From positions 1-28,091 of the IMG/VR virus record IMGVR_UViG_3300036835_000524: 28,091 nucleotides of DNA; one strand, 5' to 3'. The stretch's first letter is position 1. Every line of letters begins with the position of its first letter. Shown piece by piece: positions 3,287-16,532 of the stretch. The notes below the pieces were generated by a model, which worked only from the letters and a program-made list of their open reading frames with translations, searched no databases and had not been told where the DNA came from. Source of the DNA: a virus. The position numbers and the translations under genes were made by a program.

Positions 3287-3498
3287 GCGCCGGCCTCTTC
3301 GCGCGGGAGGGCGAAGATCGGCAGGTTGTCGGGCTGCGTCCAGCCGCCGTCGGGGACGATCGCCCCGAAGCGCTTGTGTTTGTCGCAGAGTGTCCCGTCG
3401 ACGTGGCGGTAGGGGCAGCGCCGGCCAGCGAAGTTCATCGACTGGCAGCGCTCGCGGTCGGAGACGCCGTCGCCGCGTCTGCGGGCGGCGGCGGTCAC
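3283..3498 (-). CDS. Small Cys/His (zinc-binding) protein (71 aa)
   Basis: GTG at 3496-3498 is the first gene after the 3.5-3.7 kb non-coding region. Residues about 18-42 hold the pattern RCQSMNFAGRRCPYRH followed by DGTLCDKHKRF: two Cys nine apart, then C-x2-H. This resembles the short treble-clef-like module in which a peptide of the form C-x(7-9)-C plus C-x2-H binds one zinc. The remainder has no recognised fold. Nucleic-acid or protein binding is an inference. No clear promoter is seen upstream, so it may be read through from the integrase/HNH transcript. Confidence 0.62.
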   Translation of the reverse strand: MTAAARRRGDGVSDRERCQSMNFAGRRCPYRHVDGTLCDKHKRFGAIVPDGGWTQPDNLPIFALPREEAGA

Positions 3499-3511
3499 GC
3501 CGGCACCGGCT

Positions 3512-3530
3512 GGACAGGTTTTGGACGAAA
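3512..3530 (+). repeat. Arm-type direct repeat, copy 1
   Basis: GGACAGGTTTTGGACGAAA at 3512-3530; its partner is at 3745-3763. The two share GGACAGG, a 4-base spacer, GGAC and an A-rich end. Confidence 0.5.
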
Positions 3531-3593
3531 CGCCCCGCCCACGCCTGTCACGCGGTGGCGTGCGCTGTCATGGTTTGTCGCCTCTGGAAGGGC

Positions 3594-3619
3594 GAAACCC
3601 CCCGCAAGCGGAGGGTTTC
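3594..3619. terminator. Hairpin, probable intrinsic terminator
   Basis: GAAACCC (3594-3600) and CCGC (3602-3605) pair with GCGG (3608-3611) and GGGTTTC (3613-3619) around an AA loop, with one C/A mismatch: 11 pairs in a 26-base hairpin. A short T-run is part of the stem, so it could stop transcription either way. It lies downstream of the HNH gene and upstream of the 3283-3498 gene on the minus strand. Confidence 0.5.
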
Positions 3620-3727
3620 TGTCCTGCCGTGGCGCACCCTGGCGCGCTGTGTCGCTACCGGGGGGTAATGGTTCGAGCCCAGTACCGCCCATAGCCGTTT
3701 GTGGCTCAACCATGCGGGTTTGCGAGA

Positions 3728-4189
3728 TCATGCGCTTTCCGCCGGGACAGGCGCTGGACAAAAACGGCTTTCGCCGTGCCGTTTCCGATGCTCGCCAGGC
3801 GTCAACGGCTCAAGATGTGAAGGGTTCACGCAGCGGGTGTTGCGACAGGTGTGGTGGACGTGCAGGCCCTTGAGGTCGGCGCCAAGGAATTCCAGCAGCA
3901 GGCGATGGGCGTAGTGCTTGCGCCCGTTCGCTCTAAGGTGGCCGTAACCCTGGCGGCTGATGTAGCCGTGCCACTCCCAGCAGCCCGCTGGAGTGATCAC
4001 GATCTGGTCGAGCAGCGATGGGAACGACGTTGCTGCGCGGCGAAGTCTGAGCAGGTCGACCCAGGCTCGTGCGGCAGCCTCGGTCGTAAACGTGCGGGTA
4101 GTGGGTCTACCGTCGGCGTAGTAACGCGCTCGCCACTGGCGACCGTGGAGATCGACGTGGCCGCCGCCGGGCTTCGAGCTGCGATTCAC
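3728..4189 (-). CDS. HNH endonuclease with N-terminal AP2/integrase-arm-like domain
   Basis: 153 residues from GTG at 4187-4189, overlapping the upstream stop. Residues 11-50 (HGRQWRARYYADGRPTTRTF then a helix with RAWVDLL) resemble the three-strand/one-helix DNA-binding domain of AP2 proteins and of tyrosine-integrase arm domains. Residues 66-130 form an HNH_3-type nuclease: GCWEWHGYISRQGYG, HRLLLEFLG, VHHTCRNTRCVNPSHL with His112-His113, Cys115, Cys120 and the N-P-x-H-L helix. It should nick or cut DNA in a metal-dependent manner, as free-standing homing nucleases do. The last 15 residues overlap an att arm repeat and lack the usual C-terminal pattern of the family. Position next to integrase and attP suggests a mobile gene. 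Confidence 0.82.
   Translation of the reverse strand: MNRSSKPGGGHVDLHGRQWRARYYADGRPTTRTFTTEAAARAWVDLLRLRRAATSFPSLLDQIVITPAGCWEWHGYISRQGYGHLRANGRKHYAHRLLLEFLGADLKGLHVHHTCRNTRCVNPSHLEPLTPGEHRKRHGESRFCPAPVPAESA
3745..3763 (+). repeat. Arm-type direct repeat, copy 2
   Basis: GGACAGGCGCTGGACAAAA at 3745-3763 matches the copy at 3512-3530 outside the 4-base spacer. It lies inside the 3' end of the HNH gene, so the end of that gene may have been extended or trimmed by att evolution. Confidence 0.5.
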
Positions 4190-4371
4190 GACGCATGCTC
4201 CGTGTCGCGGCGGTCGTAGTGATCGAGCGCCGCGCGCACGTTTCGCACGAACGTGCGCACCGCTGGCTCGAGCTCGTGCTCGACGGCCTCGAGCTCGGCG
4301 AGCGGCTCGCGGATCCGATCGACGACCTCGTCGAAGGTGAGCTCGTGGATGTCGAATTCGTGATCGGTCAC
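4186..4371 (-). CDS. Hypothetical acidic helical protein (61 aa)
   Basis: GTG at 4369-4371 and a 4-base overlap with the HNH gene downstream. Highly acidic at the N-terminus (TDHEFDIHELTFDEVVDRIR) and helical throughout, without membrane segments. A Shine-Dalgarno-like GAGGGG lies about 6 bases upstream. No family is recognised; it could be a small regulator or partner of the HNH protein or integrase. Confidence 0.55.
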   Translation of the reverse strand: MTDHEFDIHELTFDEVVDRIREPLAELEAVEHELEPAVRTFVRNVRAALDHYDRRDTEHAS

Positions 4372-4400
4372 TTCGGCCCCTCGCCGCCCAGCTCGCTCAC
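4368..4400 (-). CDS. Possible 10-codon coupling ORF
   Basis: GTG at 4398-4400 overlaps the integrase TGA, reads VSELGGEGPK, and its TGA overlaps the next GTG at 4371. It exactly bridges the only gap in this operon segment. It may be a translational coupler or chance. Confidence 0.2.
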   Translation of the reverse strand: MSELGGEGPK

Positions 4401-5641
4401 GTCGTAGCCTTCCGGGTGTCGGTCGCGGGGGTTGAGGCCCGCCGGCCGGCCACGGCCGAGACGGCGGTCGCCGGGGTCAGAGCCGGCCCGCCGGGCTCGG
4501 CCTGCAAGGTCGCGCGGAGGCCTCGCGGCGCCTTGGCGGCGATCGCCCTGCGGGCGCGCGCGCCGCGGTCGCCCTGGTCGTAGATCCGGTCCAGGAGCTC
4601 GCCCGAGTCGACGTGGCCGAGCCGGTCGGCGGCCTCCTCGCGGGTGAAGCCGGCGGCGCGCATCAGCGTCGCCGCGGTCGAGCGGAGGTCATGCGGGGTG
4701 AGGTCGTCGAACGGCGTCGGGTCGGTCTCGTCGAGACCGTGCTGCTCGCGCCAGGCCTCGCCCGCGCGCCGGCAGGCCTTCGCCCAGACCAGCTTGTGGA
4801 ACTGCCCGTACCGCCAGCCGCGGCCTGTCCTGGTCGGGAAGACGAGCCGGGTGCCCGGGGCGCGGGCGAGCAGCTGTTCGCGCAGCAGCGCGATCTCCTC
4901 CATGTCGAGCGCGACCGCCTTCGCCAGCCGTTCCTTCGCCAACTCGGCGGTGACGGTCGCGGTGCCGGCCTTCAGGTCGAGCCGGTCGTCGGTGAGCGTG
5001 AACGCTTCGCCGATCCGCAGGCCGGTCGTGCCGAGCAGCAGCAGCATCCGGCGTGCGTACTCGGGGCTGCTGTCGGCGAGCAGTTCGAGCTCGTCGACGG
5101 TGAGCGCGCGGCGGGTGCGTGGATCGACGGCGATCGGCTCGATCGTGAGGATCGACTGGTCGACGTCCGGGTCGGCCGCGTAGCGCAGCACGGCTTTCAG
5201 CGCCTGCAGTTCGTTCCGGGCCGACGTCGGCGCCGCCGCGGCGCGGGTCAGGATCGTCGGCTCGATCGTCTGCCGTCGGAGCAGGGGCAGCGGGGTCGTC
5301 GCATGGTCGCCCTCGAGCCAGGGCTTGCACGCGCGCGTCCAGTGCTCGAGCCCGCGGGTGCGGAGCTTCCGGCCGCGGCCGCTCACACGCTTGCGCGCGA
5401 GGAAAGCTTCGGTCGCGTCGCCGAGGGTGCGGTCGCCGCCGGCGCCGGGCGCCGCCGGGCGCGGCTCGCCGCTGTCGCGCATCTCGCGCAGCACCAGGAT
5501 CCGGGCGTTCGCCTTCGCCGCCGTCGGCAGGCCGGTCTCGATGTACGGCTGGCCGTCCCAGGAGAGGCGGCACCGGTAGCCGGCACCGTGCTGGTCGATG
5601 CCGGGGAGTAGCTGCTGCGGCTTCGCGGTGGTCAGAGTCAC
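4397..5641 (-). CDS. int: Tyrosine site-specific recombinase (phage integrase)
   Basis: 414 residues from GTG at 5639-5641, overlapping the stop of the excisionase-like gene. The N-terminal 60 residues form a beta-rich arm-binding domain (YRCRLSWDGQPYIETGL); about 72-165 is the SAM-like core-binding domain; 175-375 is the catalytic domain. Catalytic residues can be placed: Arg209 in TTGLRIGE, a Lys at 236 or 241, His317 and Arg320 in TPHDLR, His343 in LGHVD and the nucleophile Tyr354 in DRIYDQ. A Pro/Ala/Thr-rich tail of about 40 residues follows. It should integrate the phage at a tRNA gene, and the two tRNA-half sites at 3.67 and 6.28 kb are its likely context. The set is complete, so it should be active. 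Confidence 0.95.
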   Translation of the reverse strand: MTLTTAKPQQLLPGIDQHGAGYRCRLSWDGQPYIETGLPTAAKANARILVLREMRDSGEPRPAAPGAGGDRTLGDATEAFLARKRVSGRGRKLRTRGLEHWTRACKPWLEGDHATTPLPLLRRQTIEPTILTRAAAAPTSARNELQALKAVLRYAADPDVDQSILTIEPIAVDPRTRRALTVDELELLADSSPEYARRMLLLLGTTGLRIGEAFTLTDDRLDLKAGTATVTAELAKERLAKAVALDMEEIALLREQLLARAPGTRLVFPTRTGRGWRYGQFHKLVWAKACRRAGEAWREQHGLDETDPTPFDDLTPHDLRSTAATLMRAAGFTREEAADRLGHVDSGELLDRIYDQGDRGARARRAIAAKAPRGLRATLQAEPGGPALTPATAVSAVAGRRASTPATDTRKATT

Positions 5642-5856
5642 CGTGAGCTCCTTTCGGTTGAGGTGTGCTCACGATAGCCCGCTGTTCCGAAGTCGGCAAT
5701 CCGGGCGGCGTCGACGACGCGGACGCGCTGCTGGCCGCCGATCGTGACGGTCGGGATCACGCCGGCGGCGGCCCAGCGTTGCACGGTGCGTTTCGAAACG
5801 TGCCAGAGCTGGGCGCACTCGGCGAGGGTGAGCAGCTCGAGCTCGTCGCGGGTCAC
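5638..5856 (-). CDS. xis: Excisionase-like HTH protein
   Basis: 72 residues from GTG at 5854-5856. LTLAECAQLWHVSKRTVQRW (9-28) is a winged-helix/MerR-type HTH of the excisionase family, followed by the wing TIGGQQRVRVV and a short basic tail. Such proteins bend att DNA and set the direction of integrase. Four-base overlaps with the integrase downstream and the small gene upstream show co-expression. A simple transcription regulator is the alternative. Confidence 0.82.
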   Translation of the reverse strand: MTRDELELLTLAECAQLWHVSKRTVQRWAAAGVIPTVTIGGQQRVRVVDAARIADFGTAGYREHTSTERSSR

Positions 5857-6089
5857 GGGATCAGCCTCGTGTGCCGGTGCGCGCGCTCGAGATGACCGCT
5901 GATCGCGGCGAGCCCGACCAGGGCGCGGCCGATGTCGAGCTCGACCAGGCCGCCGTACCGGATATCGCCGGCCCGGGTGCGGAGCGCGCCGAGGTCACGA
6001 CGCAACTCGACGACGCGCTCGACGGCCGCCTCGATGCCGTCGGCGAGCTCGACGGTGCCGGCCGGCCGGTAGGCAGACGAGCGGCTCAT
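5853..6089 (-). CDS. Hypothetical helical protein (78 aa)
   Basis: ATG at 6087-6089; first gene of the leftward operon. Two helices (LADGIEAAVERVVELRRDLG, about 15-34, and LVELDIGRALVGLAAISGHL) without a hydrophobic membrane segment, ending with a His/Arg-rich tail. No Shine-Dalgarno is obvious. It overlaps the excisionase start by 4 bases. Unknown function. Confidence 0.55.
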   Translation of the reverse strand: MSRSSAYRPAGTVELADGIEAAVERVVELRRDLGALRTRAGDIRYGGLVELDIGRALVGLAAISGHLERAHRHTRLIP

Positions 6090-6134
6090 GCTCGACGGTC
6101 GTAGGAGGCTGAGGCTCTTGTCATCGGGTGTCGC

Positions 6135-6163
6135 GTTCTATCGCAGCGGCGCGCACCTGTCAC
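6135..6163 (-). promoter_or_regulatory. Candidate promoter for the leftward integrase operon
   Basis: On the minus strand GTGACA (6158-6163) and TAGAAC (6135-6140) are separated by 17 bases, about 45 bases upstream of the first gene. The -35 element overlaps the GGCGCG-CCTGTC repeats, so an integrase or excisionase bound there could repress it. Confidence 0.4.
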
Positions 6164-6176
6164 GGCGCGTCCTGTC
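6148..6176 (+). repeat. Tandem GGCGCG/CCTGTC repeat pair
   Basis: GGCGCGCACCTGTC at 6148-6161 and GGCGCGTCCTGTC at 6164-6176, period about 16. Resembles clustered protein-binding sites; same CCTGTC motif occurs near attP-like site 1. Confidence 0.5.
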
Positions 6177-6194
6177 TCGGTTTGGCGGTCGTTT

Positions 6195-6228
6195 GCGCGC
6201 GCTGGCGTGGTCTGGCGCGCGCTGGCGT
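6195..6228 (+). repeat. Perfect 14-bp direct repeat, period 20
   Basis: GCGCGCGCTGGCGT at 6195-6208 and 6215-6228. Two turns of DNA apart, fitting cooperatively bound arm-type sites for integrase. A related CTGGCGCGCTG occurs in the 3.6-kb region. Confidence 0.55.
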
Positions 6229-6245
6229 ACTCTCGCGCGGTTCTG

Positions 6246-6270
6246 TTTTTGCCGCTCGTTGCGGCGAAAA
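6246..6270. terminator. Ten-pair hairpin next to tRNA half
   Basis: TTTTTGCCGC (6246-6255) pairs with GCGGCGAAAA (6261-6270) around TCGTT, with one G-T wobble. The A and T flanks make it terminator-like in either direction. It sits 9 bases before the tRNA-half. Confidence 0.5.
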
Positions 6271-6279
6271 CGGGACACA

Positions 6280-6301
6280 GGTTCGAATCCGCGTGCCTAC
6301 G
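6280..6301 (+). other. tRNA 3'-half (attP-like site 2)
   Basis: GGTTCGAATCC followed by GCGTGCCTACG reads like a tRNA T-loop, 3' T-stem and acceptor 3' strand. Upstream ACAGG cannot pair with the 3' T-stem CCGCG except for the last two bases, and no other tRNA arms are present, so this is a half-site rather than a gene. With the repeats at 6148-6228 it resembles an attP. It is different from the half-site at 3671-3691, which ends in another acceptor sequence. Confidence 0.45.
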
Positions 6302-6303
6302 AT

Positions 6304-6408
6304 CTGAGGAGGCGGGACGGCAGGGCTCCTCTCAGCGGAATTGAGGCTACGCCTGCCGGCCCGCCATGTCGTCGAGAGGAGCGGCGTGCCGCAGCCCCGC
6401 TCCTCTCG
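6304..6408 (+). promoter_or_regulatory. Attenuator-like leader with mutually exclusive hairpins
   Basis: Four segments are mutually complementary. Segment 1 CTGAGGAG (6304-6311) pairs with 2 CTCCTCTCAG (6326-6335) with a 2-base bulge. Segment 2 GCTCCTCTC (6325-6333) pairs perfectly with 3 GAGAGGAGC (6374-6382). Segment 3 CGAGAGGAGCGG (6373-6384) pairs perfectly over 12 bases with 4 CCGCTCCTCTCG (6397-6408), followed by GCTTTC. Thus 1:2 plus 3:4 excludes 2:3, the topology of an attenuator. The strand in use and any ligand are unknown; the same pairing exists on the minus strand. Confidence 0.4.
6373..6408. terminator. Strong 12-bp hairpin
   Basis: Perfect 12-bp stem, 12-base loop, followed by GCTTTCGG on the plus strand. 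It works as segments 3:4 of the leader described at 6304-6408 and may terminate transcription, although the U-tract is weak. Confidence 0.5.
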
Positions 6409-6569
6409 GCTTTCGGTCCCGTGGCTTTCTCGTTCTGGCGCGGAAATCAGGGTGCTCCGTTCCCGCCGCAGAATGATGTCGGGCGGTTTGACCGCTCTCC
6501 GCTGAGAGAGAGCCGGGGCGGAATCTAATGCCCGCCAGCGGCGATGTCTACGAGCCCGGCGAAGCCGTG
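6409..6569. other. Non-coding, structured spacer
   Basis: Together with the flanking elements, 6090-6662 has no convincing gene. This part holds two further small stem-loops: GCGGT-TTG-ACCGC near 6483-6496 and GCTCTC-CGCTGA-GAGAGAGC near 6494-6514, partly overlapping. The plus-strand frame starting at 6528 passes through a terminator and an operator, so I do not accept it as the gene start. A short plus-strand RNA ending at 6589 would fit, but no clear promoter is visible. Confidence 0.4.
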
Positions 6570-6589
6570 CCCGCTCCTAGCGGGTTTTT
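6570..6589 (+). terminator. Intrinsic terminator, plus strand
   Basis: CCCGCT (6570-6575), loop CCT, AGCGGG (6579-6584), then TTTTT (6585-6589). Six perfect pairs and five Ts: the clearest intrinsic terminator in the window. It ends a plus-strand transcript that must start upstream, and insulates the HTH gene. Confidence 0.8.
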
Positions 6590-6606
6590 CGTCTCGGACG
6601 CGCTCG

Positions 6607-6624
6607 TGTCCGAATTATCGGACA
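6607..6624. promoter_or_regulatory. Operator palindrome upstream of HTH gene
   Basis: TGTCCGA (6607-6613), ATTA, TCGGACA (6618-6624): perfect 7-base arms. A further half-site TGTCCG is at 6640-6645. A weak -10 element CATAGT (6635-6640) lies between them and the start at 6663. It is a plausible binding site for a dimeric repressor, perhaps the HTH protein itself. Confidence 0.55.
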
Positions 6625-6662
6625 ACTCTTCGGTCATAGTGTCCGCCGTGGAAAGTTCGAAT

Positions 6663-6869
6663 ATGGCCCAGAGCCACCTGCGCAAGGTGCAGCGGCGCGC
6701 CGCGCAAGCGCAACGCGCACGTGAGCAGCTCGCCGACGCGATCCTCGCCGCCCACGATGCCGGCGAGTCGACTCGTGGCATCGCCCCGTTCGCCGGGATG
6801 TCGCACTCCCGGGTTCACGATCTGCTCGTCGACGCTCGAGAGCGGGCCGGGCGGGCCCGTGACGGCTGA
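6663..6869 (+). CDS. Small HTH DNA-binding protein (68 aa), candidate lysogeny regulator
   Basis: ATG at 6663-6665 with GGAAAG 7 bases upstream. I rejected the longer frame starting at 6528 because it crosses an intrinsic terminator and a palindromic operator. The first 30 residues are a basic amphipathic helix (LRKVQRRAAQAQRAREQLAD); residues 34-60 form an HTH (AHDAGESTRGIAPFAGMSHS then RVHDLLVDAR), like the sigma-70 region 4-type helices common in small actinobacterial proteins. It is one of only two genes on the plus strand, facing away from the integrase operon, as repressor or immunity genes often do. Repressor function is an inference. Confidence 0.7.
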   Translation: MAQSHLRKVQRRAAQAQRAREQLADAILAAHDAGESTRGIAPFAGMSHSRVHDLLVDARERAGRARDG

Positions 6870-7878: not shown

Positions 7879-8820
7879 CTACAGGCTTCTTGCCCGCTCC
7901 AGAACGGAGTCGAGCGGAAATCCGCTGCCACAATCCCAATGTCCACCTCCCCACGCTCCGAGGTCGGCGTGCTGGCAGACTCCTCTGCCGGTCCCCTGCG
8001 CCTGTGAGGCGCTCAGCTTGCTGATCGGGAGGTCGAAGAAGTCGGCCTCCTCGGCGATCCAGCGGGCGCAGTTCTCCAGCATCTCCGGGTGTTTGTTCCA
8101 CTCCGCGGCCGACCATTTGGCGAAGCCGCACAGCTCGGCCGAAACGCTGACCGGGTTGGCGTTCGCCTGCGTCCACGCTTTGCCGTCGCGGCGTACGTAC
8201 TCGCCGATCACCCCCGCCTTGTCGTCGATCCCGACGTGGGAGGACGCGTCGACGGACGGGTTGGCGAAGTAGCTGCCGAGGCTTTCGATCGTCGTGGCCC
8301 CTTCGGCGGTGTGGACGACGATCAGCCTCACCCTGGCGCCGCCGCGGGAGCTGTAGTTGGGTGAGGGGAACGCCTTCCGCGTCAGCTTCGGCGTGGTGCC
8401 GCCGTGGAACATCTCGTACGCCTGGTTCAGCAGGTCGATCGCGGTCGTGTCGAAAGCCGGCTCGCCGCCGTGCGGGAGCTCGTCGGGGATCAGCGCGTAG
8501 GCGAGCGCGTTGTAGGTTTTCGCGCCCAGCCAGCCGGTCGCGTCGATCTTCTGCTGCCGTTGGAAGCCTGCGACACCGGAGCGTCCCACGTCCGAGGAGG
8601 GGTCGCCGAGCGAGAAGGCGTCCCAGTAGCCGTCGTCGAATTCCTGCCAGGGCCAGCGTCCTAGCCGGCTGACCGCACGCTTGTAGGCGATCACGTCCGG
8701 CCCTTTCGCCGACGGTGTCTTGCCCTTGTTCGCAGCGCTCGGCGGGTAGAGCGGACGTGGCAGCAGGGGAAGGTTCTTCGGCGGTGGGGCGCCCGGGTAC
8801 GGCTTCGTCGACCATTTCAT
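7879..8820 (-). CDS. lysA: Endolysin: peptidoglycan-binding domain plus N-acetylmuramoyl-L-alanine amidase
   Basis: 313 residues from ATG at 8818-8820, overlapping the fibre stop. Residues about 40-110 form a peptidoglycan-binding_1-like repeat ([31 protein letters not shown]). Residues 155-305 form an amidase_2/PGRP fold with probable zinc ligands His170 ([10 protein letters not shown]), His284 (VCQHADLG) and Cys297 (GHWDCG), plus SSHVGID at 193-199. It cleaves the bond between MurNAc and the peptide stem. No signal peptide is seen, so release needs a holin, and the membrane proteins encoded just downstream are candidates. The order binding domain first, then catalytic, is typical of actinophage lysins. 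Confidence 0.9.
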
Positions 8821-9923: not shown

Positions 9924-10322
9924 CTAGAAGACGATGAGGGTCGGGATCAGCGAATGGTCGGCGTCGTAGACGAGCACGTCGTCGCCGCTCGAGTTGGTGG
10001 TGGTGAGCGGAAGCCAGCAGGCGGTGTCGGTCGGGCCCGCCCCTCCGCCGCCGCCTGACGGTGTTTGCCAGGCGGTCGCATAGTCGCTGCTCGAGGTTTT
10101 GGTGAGCACCTGGCCGGTCGTGCCGCCGGTCGGGACACCCGGCCCCGCAGGCCCGGTGGGGCCTGCCGCACCGTCGGCGCCGTCGGCGCCGGGTGGGCCC
10201 GCCGGGCCGGTCGCCCCGGCCGGGCCGCCGGTCCCGTCGACACGGATCACGTTCGGGTCGTCCACGTCGGGGGTGACTGTCAGCCCGTCGCCCCACTGGA
10301 TCTTCGAGAACTTGGCGGTCAT
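9924..10322 (-). CDS. Collagen-like minor tail/fibre protein
   Basis: 132 residues from ATG at 10320-10322, overlapping the upstream stop (ATGA). Residues 1-30 form a short fold (FSKIQWGDGLTVTPDVDDPN), about 31-62 are collagen triplets (GGPAGATGPAGPPGADGADG and on), then a linker with QVLTKTSSSDYATAWQTPSG and a Gly-rich stretch before a beta C-terminus (VLVYDADHSLIPTLIVF). The QVLTKTS...AWQ segment resembles the repeat unit of the neighbouring fibre. It is likely a trimeric fibre or tip component. Confidence 0.72.
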   Translation of the reverse strand: MTAKFSKIQWGDGLTVTPDVDDPNVIRVDGTGGPAGATGPAGPPGADGADGAAGPTGPAGPGVPTGGTTGQVLTKTSSSDYATAWQTPSGGGGGAGPTDTACWLPLTTTNSSGDDVLVYDADHSLIPTLIVF

Positions 10323-16143: not shown

Positions 16144-16532
16144 GAGCCTCCCCGGTTGAAGTCGGCTGTGACCCGGTCGAACAGCCGCTCGAACGTGTCG
16201 ACGACGGTCGTCTCGTTCTGGTCCAGTGCCGGCTGCATCGCGCGGCCCATCAGCAGGTCGGCGAACGCCGGCCGGCGGCGCGGGTCGGCGCCGCGGGTCT
16301 TGACGCCGCGTTCGCGTGGTGCGACGTAGACGAGCGTGCGGGTGACGCCGACGCGCATCTTCCACCAGTCCTTGCCGATCCGGCGGATCTTCGTCTGGGC
16401 GAGCTGCTCGGCGTCACGGCGGACCGGCTCGGCAGCTTCCCGCTCGGCGCCGCGGAGCCCGGCGCTCGCGTCGCGGCCCGCCTGCGCGAACGCGGCCGAC
16501 AGCTCGCGCATCCCGTGGACGACCGCCGTCAC
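16140..16532 (-). CDS. HK97-gp10-like tail completion / connector protein
   Basis: 130 residues from GTG at 16530-16532, 1 base after the tail-tube stop. N-terminal amphipathic helix (ELSAAFAQAGRDASAGLRGA) followed by a beta-rich core with RVGVTRTLVYVAPRERGVKT, the pattern of HK97 gp10-type proteins that join neck and tail. The C-terminal helix VDTFERLFDRVTADFNR closes it. Located between tail tube and chaperones; identity is family-level. Confidence 0.72.
   Translation of the reverse strand: MTAVVHGMRELSAAFAQAGRDASAGLRGAEREAAEPVRRDAEQLAQTKIRRIGKDWWKMRVGVTRTLVYVAPRERGVKTRGADPRRRPAFADLLMGRAMQPALDQNETTVVDTFERLFDRVTADFNRGGS

Follow-up and report, generated by a model that had tools for sequence, protein, structure and literature searches.

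A tRNA-Val attachment site and a probable excisionase operator on either side of a phage integrase gene

Two short strings resembling the 3′ half of a tRNA gene lie on either side of the integrase gene in an IMG/VR virus record of a soil phage (IMGVR_UViG_3300036835_000524; the whole stretch analysed, 28,091 bases, is called the window), which raises the question of whether one integrase has two phage attachment sites (attP). The first string, GGTTCGAGCC, begins at 3670 and is followed by CAGTACCGCCCA (site 1; the longer reading from 3670 is GGTTCGAGCCCAGTACCGCCCAT). The second, GGTTCGAATCC, begins at 6280, with GCGTGCCTAC after it (site 2; the longer reading from 6280 is GGTTCGAATCCGCGTGCCTAC). 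A preliminary description had reported both strings together with the acceptor-like sequences after them, correctly except that it started the first at 3671, and had held that the two acceptor sequences do not come from one event, with which we agree. It had also proposed either a relic of a former attachment site or two attP sites for different host tRNAs, possibly shared by a single integrase. We consider a different arrangement likely, in which attP lies at site 1 and contains arrays of binding sites for an excisionase-like protein, Xis, while a third array of the same kind acts as an operator at site 2. Site 1 is an ordinary but well-documented tRNA-Val attP and site 2 probably an excisionase operator, both of kinds already known.

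The T-loop consensus GGTTCRANYCC matches the window at sites 1 and 2 only. Its expected count is 0.29 and two matches were reached in 4 of 100 shuffles, so site 1 together with one chance match is not improbable. The context of the two sites cannot be chance, because site 1 is kept in relatives and site 2 adjoins a repeat array that it has in common with site 1. Neither site is a complete tRNA, as had been stated before: ARAGORN finds none at either, and an Rfam scan of 3400-6700 gave matches at noise level throughout, with no tRNA-like element at either site. We judged the one tRNA-Asp(GTC) that ARAGORN reports at 10147-10229, inside the structural-gene region, to be probably a false match.

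By its sequence, site 1 is a complete attP, the single one of this phage, directed at a host tRNA-Val gene. We base this on the tRNA-Val core, the arm pairs on both sides, the neighbouring integrase gene, the conservation among relatives and an integrated relative beside an intact tRNA. Its parts are the following.

3511-3759, minus strand: the whole attP, with two arm pairs, the core and two repeat arrays with a hairpin between them
3744-3759, minus strand: integrase-proximal arm-type pair, GTCCAGCGCCTGTCCC, overlapping the 3′ end of an HNH reading frame
3658-3692, minus strand: attP core, ATGGGCGGTACTGG-GCTCGAA-CCATTACCCCCCGG; its 23-mer occurs in six other phages and it contains a tRNA-Val 3′ end
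3616-3655, minus strand: 10-bp repeat array A (GCGACA/GCGCCA/GCGCCA/AGGACA)
3594-3619, no strand assigned: hairpin between arrays A and B, read from the sequence
3542-3581, minus strand: 10-bp repeat array B (GCGACA/ATGACA/ACGCCA/GTGACA)
3511-3526, minus strand: distal arm-type pair, GTCCAAAACCTGTCCA

The core is what ties this site to a tRNA. Within it, the plus strand from 3670 onwards gives the tRNA-Val 3′ end, and the core 23-mer, ATGGGCGGTACTGGGCTCGAACC, is unchanged in six other viral contigs, each of which encodes an integrase related to that of the window (36-72% identity). The 22-base tRNA part of the core, on the opposite strand, equals a tRNA-Val 3′ end, and 105 of its 126 matches in GTDB fall inside a tRNA-Val called by ARAGORN, many of them in Thermoleophilia; a similar search found the core in 40 of 61 genomes of the class. 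In L044, a contig of a Thermoleophilia metagenome-assembled genome, the gene of an integrase relative (~40% identity) ends ~60 bases past an intact tRNA-Val(GAC) at 577-650. This integrated relative was located through the tRNA-Val pattern instead of the integrase, a single-sequence integrase search of the GTDB contigs having given no match. The half-sites of the core form inverted repeats around the T-loop, matching at 10 of 14 positions, and the T-loop itself (3672-3678) is the likely 7-bp overlap. The other 21 of the 126 GTDB copies lie outside any ARAGORN tRNA (for example in L045, L052, L059 and L090); a few are truncated where the contig stops, and many look like the scars or termini of other elements that integrated.

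The arms show an equally regular arrangement. The core is flanked on both sides, in ten phages with integrases of this family, by a tandem GTCCA-type pair with 11-bp spacing, the repeat being GTCCA, GTCCC or GTCTA depending on the phage. For eight of the ten, the distances of the pairs from the core are -79 and +154/155 bp (-79/+154 in the window), and the two exceptions are off by about one helical turn (L129, proximal pair at -91, L129:7285; L148, distal pair at +144, L148:9975). On its minus strand the window has GTCCA-N6-GTCC pairs at 3759 and 3526, and elsewhere there is just one weak plus-strand match, at 16210; the GGACAGG-N4-GGAC repeats noticed earlier around site 1 are present near 3513-3526 and at 3744-3759. 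The two arrays of short repeats, separated by the hairpin, are placed between the core and the distal pair, and a hairpin occupies the equivalent place in the attP of L007, L133, L148 and L132. In the window, the array repeats recur every 10 bp and seldom depart from [AG][CT]G[AC]CA. L007 has three tandem GGGTCCA repeats, not two, in its distal arm (L007:5449-5475).

The target differs among integrase relatives: it is tRNA-Glu(CTC) in L129 (L129:7377) and of the tRNA-Val(CAC) type in L130 (L130:7310), L131 (L131:7328) and L144, the last of which is provirus-like with host flank, as judged from an intact tRNA-Val(CAC) at 8226-8297. L131 also has a second T-loop look-alike, GGTTCAATCCC, beside its real attP core, in a hairpin ~99 bases past the integrase match. 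In our opinion the point most worth keeping is this conserved geometry of attP, which hardly varies among ten phages even though some have tRNA-Val and others tRNA-Glu as target.

What, then, is site 2? Its main element is a repeat array located before the xis-int genes.

6169-6238, minus strand: array of ~7 units at 10 bp with the motif of arrays A and B, the proposed xis-int operator
6246-6270, no strand assigned: hairpin beside the array
6280-6290, plus strand: T-loop look-alike, GGTTCGAATCC, probably coincidental

The array continues more weakly and in phase from 6154 to 6115, and GCGCGCGCTGGCGT occurs in it twice, at 6195 and 6215, 20 bp apart. The preliminary description had pointed to repeats and hairpins beside both sites and had taken the repeats as meaningful; this held up, in that the arrays at the two places share the [AG][CT]G[AC]CA motif and the 10-bp period. 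The relationship between the two sites is visible only with a periodic matrix, and plain local alignment of their neighbourhoods is not significant (equalled in 32 of 300 shuffles). We built a position weight matrix solely on repeats in the attP arms of five other phages, leaving the window out, and scanned all 28 kb with it. The peaks were at 3655 (28.1) and 3581 (21.4) in attP and at 6228 (27.8) beside site 2; the next, unrelated one scored 7.9. On 200 shuffles the maximum was 27.7 and the mean 12.2, so that 27.8 was never reached. Relatives were scanned with their own attP matrices, and three of them, L007, L133 and L132, have a third array upstream of xis; it scored 28.3 in L007 and 32.1 in L133, exceeding all 100 shuffles. 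A LexA-type box (TCGAAC-N4-GTTCGA) was considered for site 2 and rejected, the match there having 3 mismatches and being one of 52 such in the window.

The genes next to the array suggest which protein might use it.

4397-5641, minus strand: tyrosine integrase (Int), 414 amino acids (Pfam PF00589, 1e-17; PHROG integrase, 7e-40)
5638-5856, minus strand: xis, excisionase-like small helix-turn-helix (HTH) protein, 72 amino acids (Pfam HTH_17, 7e-9; PHROG excisionase, 2e-7)

The catalytic residues of the integrase, R209, H317, R320, H343 and Y354, are invariant in an alignment of its relatives, and in ten relatives phmmer finds a xis relative immediately before int. Xis appears to be a small MerR-like protein, and its nearest sequence in the PDB is BldC (6ama, 7e-6).

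From this anatomy we infer how the module may work, including which protein binds which repeat and the sign and direction of control. The N-terminal domain of Int would bind the two GTCCA-N6-GTCC arm pairs, and Int would recombine the attP core with the 3′ half of the host tRNA-Val gene; the crossover probably falls in the 7-bp T-loop, so that the tRNA would be restored by phage DNA. The [AG][CT]G[AC]CA arrays of the distal arm, spaced 10-11 bp, would be Xis sites, and a head-to-tail Xis polymer on them would favour excision. Site 2 (6169-6238) would be a third array of Xis sites before xis-int, where Xis, or less likely Int, may control transcription of xis-int and perhaps of a divergent HTH gene as well. 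We propose Xis at both places because the array motif is common to attP and site 2, because of the likeness to BldC and because of the precedents of Apl and RdfS. No sigma-70-like promoter was predicted at the site 2 array, and the promoter placed there is a presumed one.

Known systems resemble each part of this scheme. Site 1 is like the attP of Ms6, an Actinomycetota phage with a tyrosine integrase, whose ~26-bp core is identical to the 3′ end of a tRNA-Ala and for which exchange has been argued to occur, probably, in the 7-bp T-loop (PMC1762012). In the window the target is tRNA-Val, and the arm repeats and the host class differ; the likeness is one of features. For the arrays, the closest arrangement is that of Apl of coliphage 186, which has six-bp operators with 10-11 bp spacing, five of which lie at attP and seven between pR and pL (PMC7498355). 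The window likewise has direct six-bp repeats at this spacing, at attP and in a putative promoter region; however, its second array lies before xis-int instead of between lysis-lysogeny promoters such as pR and pL, and its protein is MerR-like or BldC-like by sequence. RdfS of ICEMlSym(R7A), a winged HTH directionality factor, binds attP and its own promoter (PMC11963761), as Xis, known here from its sequence, may do; rdfS is apart from its integrase gene, whereas xis adjoins int. BldC of Streptomyces (PDB 6ama/6amk), the nearest solved relative of Xis, forms a head-to-tail oligomer on direct repeats and has an Xis-like structure (PMC5859096), but it is a developmental regulator, not an excisionase, and its consensus is AT-rich. 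The 10-bp direct repeats and the small HTH factor would fit a dual-site directionality system of the Apl/Cox/RdfS type. The analysis thus allows a comparison of the integration module among phages whose hosts, judged by the target tRNA, would be Thermoleophilia, with a candidate excisionase that may act both on attP and on its own operon; the attP geometry and the excisionase may be useful for integration vectors in hosts with few genetic tools.

The period-10 arrays could instead be extra arm-type sites of Int, which would repress its own operon at site 2. Autoregulation by integrases has precedents in IntS (PMC11963761) and in intS of KplE1 (PMC2951348). The arm sites of Int are already explained by the GTCCA pairs of fixed geometry, none of which stands at site 2, and arrays of direct repeats spaced by one turn are typical of excisionases (PMC7498355). 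We regard this explanation as unlikely, though it is the strongest of the alternatives.

Several observations weigh against Xis operating at site 2. The third array upstream of xis in L132 scores 22.2, under the largest shuffle value of 24.5; L003 and L129 lack such an array in the stretch fetched; and the upstream repeat of L148 (5219) is a variant, CGTCAT, which the matrix of L148 itself fails to pick out. The boundaries of the motif were first drawn with both sites in view, even though the test matrix left the window out. Finally, the chance of finding the T-loop consensus within ~500 bases of such an array is ~0.005, a figure calculated post hoc. Because of that proximity we retain a decayed second attP at site 2 as a possibility, at a very low probability.

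That site 2 is a second or decayed former attP, used by the same integrase for another host tRNA, is the broader form of this idea. The T-loop consensus at 6280 is indeed followed by an acceptor-like stretch, the order of core, hairpin and attP-type array is that of attP, and the tRNA target does vary among relatives (tRNA-Val of the GAC/TAC type, tRNA-Val of the CAC type and tRNA-Glu CTC). With up to 2 mismatches, the site 2 21-mer occurred in none of 399 genomes from the class of the L044 host and none of 296 from its phylum, 695 look-ups in samples that overlap slightly. Its best agreement with any of the 162 tRNAs compared was 17 of 22 positions, and the exact core occurs in no IMG/VR contig. 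In contrast, searches of the same kind find the true cores, that of the window as given above and that of L129 at 1 mismatch in 17 of 61 class genomes, as a tRNA-Glu(CTC) 3′ end. No GTCCA arm pair comes closer to site 2 than 600 bp, and read as inverted repeats its half-sites match at 4 of 14 positions, whereas those of site 1 match at 10. In the region just before int, several relatives carry the array but none a T-loop core.

Since the tRNA match, the arm pair and the core symmetry are all missing or slight, we do not take site 2 for a second attP that this integrase uses, and the 11 bases at 6280 are probably a coincidence. The earlier proposal of two sites keeps its first half, while a second attP, or a recognisable relic of one, at site 2 is not supported. 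A second or former attP in any form we think very improbable, and two attachment sites for one integrase, with site 2 a working or recently lost attP for an unsampled tRNA, slightly more so; if true, the control region of xis-int would double as a second attachment site. That the array is a chance run of repeats, as the GC-rich region and the failed plain alignment might suggest, we dismiss almost entirely, since the matrix from other phages selects it from 28 kb at a score level with the attP arms and a similar array stands at the equivalent place in relatives.

Three further genes adjoin the attP and the proposed Xis operator.

3728-4189, minus strand: HNH endonuclease gene between int and attP (Pfam HNH_3; PHROG HNH endonuclease, 1e-22)
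5853-6089, minus strand: small open reading frame between the site 2 array and xis, without assigned function
6528-6869, plus strand: divergent HTH gene across the array (HTH_58, 1.5e-4, just under the Pfam cut-off)

No relatives of the last gene were found in IMG/VR; in L133 and L132 an HTH gene likewise lies beyond the far side of the array. In L003 and L005 the gap between int and attP is too small for an HNH gene such as that of the window. IMGVR_UViG_3300045120_000203 (L004/L005) has part of int at both contig ends, as would be expected if the genome is circular and the contig ends share a repeat of ~990 bases.

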